The notes under the pieces: generated by a model
What the model saw: the letters and a program-made list of their open reading frames with translations, nothing else
Told to the model about the DNA's origin: nothing
Database searches by the model: none
Shown: positions 27,346 to 27,432 of the stretch, in pieces
Layout: every line of letters begins with the position of its first letter
Numbering within the stretch: the first letter of the stretch is position 1
Made by a program: the position numbers and the translations under genes
From: Lepus europaeus
Taxonomy: Eukaryota > Chordata > Mammalia > Lagomorpha > Leporidae
Length of the DNA: 64,000 bases
Direction: 5' to 3'
Assembly: GCF_033115175.1 (NCBI RefSeq)
Contig: NC_084827.1
Coordinates: 146,003,701 to 146,067,700, forward strand

Positions 27346-27357
27346 AATGAAACTCAC

Positions 27358-27432
27358 CTGTCCAATGACTTTGAGTTTAATGTACTCTCCTTCCTTCTTA
27401 TCCCCCAAGTCCTCAGTTGAAGGTTTTGCCTC
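27358..27432 (-). CDS. SUMO1: SUMO1 exon 2 (residues 5-29)
   Basis: Reading the - strand: TTCTCTTTCAG|GAGGCA to GGACAG|GTGAGT. The 25 codons encode [20 protein letters not shown] and KVIGQ: the flexible N-terminal tail (with Lys7, Lys16 and Lys17) and the first beta strand. A CSINE2 lies on the other side of the donor, and its target-site duplication begins at intron position +4. The consensus donor bases are nevertheless intact. Confidence 0.98.

Follow-up and report, generated by a model that had tools for sequence, protein, structure and literature searches.

The retrotransposon described as the cause of merle in dogs, located in PMEL, is a tRNA-derived SINE in reverse orientation that carries a poly(T) stretch, a cryptic acceptor and a GA repeat, and it is bordered by a 15-bp duplication at a splice junction (PMC7349775). 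The SINE next to exon 2 of SUMO1 in the present sequence resembles it in the class and orientation of the element, in the poly(T), acceptor-like and GA-repeat parts, and in having a duplication at a splice junction. The merle SINE is situated at an acceptor, alters splicing, produces a visible trait and has a tail of ~25–105 nt (PMC7349775), while the SUMO1 SINE is situated at a donor, has an A15 run and has no known effect.

In human and mouse, the two species covered by the survey of near-exon retrotransposons, SINEs are under-represented in the 100 bp adjoining exons, and among the retrotransposons near exons those beside donors outnumber those beside acceptors (PMC3088655). The mutagenic Alus listed there are all antisense and within 100 bp (6 of 6), and five of the six are near acceptors. 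The SUMO1 SINE falls within this SINE-poor zone of 100 bp, at its donor end; its body begins at intron position +23, narrowly outside the <20 bp class of that survey. Like the polymorphic Alus that alter exon use (PMC6326789), it is within 100 bp of a skippable exon; the effects of those Alus were measured, and the SUMO1 element looks old. As in the TIA-responsive Alu tract (PMC2766253), a SINE-derived pyrimidine tract lies downstream of a 5′ splice site. In that system the donor is the weaker of two and its stronger competitor lies downstream, whereas the SUMO1 donor is itself strong and no competing site was found. An earlier description of a SINE insertion in SUMO1 intron 2 was not found in the literature searched, and we judge a tolerated SINE insertion beside this donor to be new as an instance and known as a kind.

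SUMO1 exon 2 and its splice donor

The window, i.e. the whole 64-kb stretch of DNA that was analysed, contains a complete SUMO1 gene on the − strand, with five exons encoding a 101-residue protein. Exons 2 to 5 were located by tblastn with the human SUMO1 protein as the query, and the ATG of exon 1 is at 42648 (− strand). When exon 1, 27432–27358, 19140–19063, 16746–16675 and exon 5 (from 12958) are joined, the frame stays open over 101 amino acids, and the spliced product is identical to the human query protein. The 75-bp, in-frame exon 2 proposed in the initial annotation is thereby placed within a complete gene. Elsewhere in the window, a 120-codon frame on the + strand (6173–6535) contains a stretch with many glutamine, glutamate, arginine and lysine residues; it may belong to an adjacent gene as one of its exons, conceivably KIAA2012. 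The features around exon 2 are as follows.

27358..27432, − strand: SUMO1 exon 2, 75 bp, in frame (tblastn and splicing of the frame)
27352..27360, − strand: exon 2 splice donor CAG/GTGAGT, 8 of 9 positions matching CAGGTAAGT (consensus comparison)
27347..27351, − strand: TTCAT, branch-point-like, with its A at intron +10 (motif match)
27336..27354, + strand: donor-side duplication copy (intron +4 to +22), its AATGAAACT end as in human (repeat finder and human comparison)
27319..27338, − strand: acceptor-like sequence made up of T15 and GACAG, whose AG ends at intron +39 (script on the sequence)
27010..27335, + strand: C-type SINE shortly after exon 2, in antisense orientation relative to SUMO1 (blastn and duplication bounds)
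26991..27009, + strand: far duplication copy, preceded by TT (TT/AAAG; repeat finder and flank search)

The exon 2 donor, CAGGTGAGT, agrees with the U1 consensus in 8 of its 9 positions, unlike the weak 5′ splice site that TIA1-enhanced exons typically, though not universally, have. The donor CAG/GTGAGTTTCATT that had been assigned to the − strand was found at 27360–27346, and intron 2 of the window reads AGTTTCATT at +4 to +12 (− strand). A text search with short junction strings yielded a human donor sequence in PMC13174819. A 21-base junction pattern had no match in the viral_contigs and genome_contigs collections, neither of which includes mammals. Table 1 of that source prints the human exon 2 donor as GTCATTGGACAGGTGAGTTTCATTG, which agrees with the window through intron +12; positions +1 to +12 of human intron 2 are GTGAGTTTCATT, the same as in the window. 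The human comparison thus consists of one outgroup and one printed sequence, taken from the oligonucleotide table of a 2026 preprint that labels the donor oligonucleotide a morpholino yet prints it in the sense direction (PMC13174819). Intron position +13 differs three ways, being C in the donor-side copy, A in the far copy and G in human.

A lagomorph C-SINE would not be expected in human SUMO1. Because the human gene, presumably without this element, has the identical twelve intron bases, positions +4 to +12 would predate the insertion, and they are most simply read as older intron sequence that the insertion copied. The identity in human bears on several claims of the initial annotation. 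The duplication had been thought to form part of the donor; that it built or changed the donor is not supported, the same twelve bases being present in human. The associated statement that GTGAGT was kept by the duplication is correct, the duplication overlapping the outer donor bases +4 to +6. Different bases at +4 to +12 in a species lacking the SINE had been named as evidence against the duplication, and the printed human bases do not differ.

The predicted openness of the donor (−3 to +6) was 0.34–0.35 with the SINE and 0.35 without it. Masking of the donor by RNA structure was rejected on the basis of this prediction.

The SINE and its target-site duplication

The repeat finder gave a duplication of 19 bp with 18 of 19 positions matching, at 26991–27009 (AAAGAAAAATAATGAAACT) and 27336–27354 (AAAGAAAAAGAATGAAACT). 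A 9-bp duplication (27001–27009 and 27346–27354) around a SINE at 27010–27345 had been proposed before; AATGAAACT is indeed present at both sites with a SINE between them, but these 9 bp are only the donor-side end of the full duplication, which moves the right end of the element to 27335. The A run at 27324–27338 (A15) comprises the SINE tail plus up to three A from the duplication. Because the right copy opens with three A that could equally belong to the tail, the duplication is safely taken to be at least 16 bp long. As in L1-mobilised SINEs, the duplication abuts both ends of the element (18/19 bp), and a nick motif (TT/AAAG at 26989–26994) is present together with the 3′ A tail; a TT/AAAA-like nick site is the target motif of the L1 endonuclease. 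When 14 near-full-length SINE copies were examined in the same way, the duplication score of this element was the highest, a place shared with one other copy; several of the 14 yield only weak duplication candidates.

We refer to the element as a C-type SINE ("CSINE2" was the name in the initial annotation); SINEs of this type are in keeping with the rabbit source assumed there. The 63 SINE-family blastn hits in the window, which include the element itself and of which some are pieces of one element, cover 21% of its length. ARAGORN detected no tRNA genes in the window, a result that a SINE with a decayed tRNA-like head could also give. Compared with the consensus of the 13 other near-full-length copies, the element differs at 21 of 220 non-CpG sites (21 of 235 with another cut-off); 14 of the 21 differences are common to at least one of the other copies and 7 are private. 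It is the second most divergent of the 14 copies. This divergence suggests that the insertion is not recent, although its age can be given only within wide limits. The CTGTC and A run that underlie T15 and GACAG on the SUMO1 strand are a family trait, occurring at seven places in the window (four on the + strand and three on the − strand). The A15 run beside the donor may vary in length among animals, as does the merle tail.

The eight SUMO1 junctions are 23 to 1,451 nt from the edge of the nearest SINE-family hit. At the hit density of the window, ~0.02 hits would be expected by chance at no more than 23 nt to one side of any chosen point, and ~0.004 hits at no more than 4 nt. Across many genes, comparable cases of a SINE by a donor should not be singular. 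Two related SINEs in opposite orientation (26631–26838 and 27794–28031) flank exon 2 at ~0.5 and ~0.4 kb and are 67.6% complementary over 213 nt. Within intron 2, 26631–26838 can also pair with 27010–27335 (70.6% over 221 nt). Inverted pairs of SINEs can promote the formation of circular RNA or the skipping of an exon.

The intron behind the donor before and after insertion

The empty site was rebuilt by a script that removed the SINE and one duplication copy. With the far copy kept, the rebuilt site is gtgagtttcattatttttctttaacctcc, and keeping the near copy gives the same sequence except for C at +13. The pre-insertion site is expected to have read gtgagtttcatt, followed by a T-rich stretch. 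The T content at +10 to +28 is 11/19 in both rebuilt versions and 16/19 now, and at +7 to +36 it is 15/30 and 24/30, respectively. The longest T run in the first 80 intron nucleotides increases from 5 to 15, and a T5 is already present at +14 to +18 in the rebuilt site. The U-rich tract at +10 to +28 that is characteristic of TIA1-enhanced exons is found in the present intron, with the rebuilt site at the lower value given above. The A tail had been held to put a U-rich tract behind the donor; it lengthened the T run, but with 11 of 19 positions already T in the rebuilt site it did not create the tract. The tract was probably extended rather than made by the insertion, a shorter version having existed earlier. 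The part that is new with the insertion is an unbroken T15 followed by GACAG/G, which is acceptor-like as in other antisense SINEs.

Insertion model and alternative readings

With the anatomy of the locus, the duplication, the twelve human-identical intron bases and the T content before and after insertion in hand, we infer an L1-type insertion that preserved the donor, was tolerated and is near-neutral for exon 2 inclusion, and we consider this explanation as a whole to be likely. Specifically, target-primed reverse transcription of the L1 type would have placed the C-type SINE close to the start of SUMO1 intron 2, in antisense orientation. The first nick would lie on the sense strand between intron +22 and +23, and the second on the other strand between +3 and +4. 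Fill-in of the 19-bp stagger would have kept the ancestral sequence on the donor side, and the donor would have stayed intact for this reason. The wording that the element "landed within the 5′ splice site" was an overstatement, given the first nick inferred at +22/+23 of the sense strand. Two things may explain why the insertion was tolerated: the donor is both short and strong, and L1 nicks A/T-rich targets, so that the flank would have been U-rich both before and after. The intact 101-residue frame of SUMO1 speaks for a near-neutral insertion, and the rise in T content at +10 to +28 and in the longest T run speaks against simple tolerance. Nor is tolerance a given, since SINEs are depleted near exons and the listed mutagenic Alus are antisense and within 100 bp (PMC3088655).

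That the repeat is a coincidence and no target-site duplication is extremely improbable. The 19 bp are A-rich over half their length, and among 8,996 control left flanks 2 gave at least 19 bp with at most one mismatch; such a match is rare but not impossible by chance. However, the repeat adjoins both ends of the SINE with TT in front, its 18 matches include the specific AATGAAACT end, and the left copy is matched at 17 or more of 19 positions in only these two places in the whole window on both strands (the 9-mer AATGAAACT by itself occurs three times on the + strand and not on the − strand). In another reading, the longer U tract would recruit more TIA1/TIAL1, help U1 and raise exon 2 inclusion. 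TIA crosslinks are enriched 10 to 28 nt past the donor at constitutive and alternative exons alike (PMC2964331), exactly the zone in which the T content rose, and tracts downstream of a donor raised its use in a manner that scaled with tract length (PMC2766253). Such tracts are commonest behind weak donors, however (PMC2766253), and strong TIA1 dependence is not expected because the SUMO1 donor is at 8/9 to the U1 consensus. In addition, the T5 and the 11/19 tract predate the SINE, the most common TIA pentamers named in the crosslinking study are UUUUA and AUUUU rather than pure U (PMC2964331), and the tract at +7 to +28 is predicted to be less open with the SINE (0.07–0.22 in three spans) than without it (0.24–0.25). 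We therefore regard a gain in inclusion through TIA1 as unlikely.

An effect in the opposite direction, in which the antisense tail acts as a decoy acceptor over the donor and U2AF65 or hnRNP C lowers exon 2 recognition, or the SINE is exonised, appears less likely still. The AG at +39 is preceded by 18 pyrimidines in 20 positions, and TTCAT (+7 to +11), whose A is 29 nt away from +39, agrees with yUnAy. U tracts of at least nine are the strongest hnRNP C sites, and at antisense Alus this protein and U2AF65 are competitors (PMC3629564). The merle SINE shares the order of these parts and shifts splicing, but its tails of ~25 to 105 nt are longer than the T15 here (PMC7349775). None of the 13 GTs in +41 to +415 reaches 7/9 as a downstream donor, the best being CAGGTGCTT with 6, and exonisation of the SINE is unlikely on this ground; an intron of 39 nt would also be very short. 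An elaborate form of the decoy, a fused donor and acceptor, is very unlikely in our estimate. The duplicated target would provide the branch-like TTCAT, the tail the pyrimidine tract and the SINE the AG at +39; binding of U1 and of U2AF/U2 would then be mutually exclusive, with hnRNP C or TIA1 deciding between them.

Read as a tolerated, near-neutral event, the insertion is a clean case of how an L1-type element can adjoin a donor without harm, the donor being kept by construction because the stagger copies the old flank. It is also a corrective, since an overlap between a duplication and a splice site is no proof that the site was made by the element. Human exon 2 skipping gives SUMO1alpha, which is described as non-conjugatable and low in abundance (PMC13174819), and an effect of the insertion on exon 2, if real, would matter for this reason. 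If the fused donor and acceptor were true, the SINE would provide a lagomorph-specific control of exon 2 skipping, and hence of non-conjugatable SUMO1alpha, and the number of U in the run would tune the skipping, as it does in dogs with merle.
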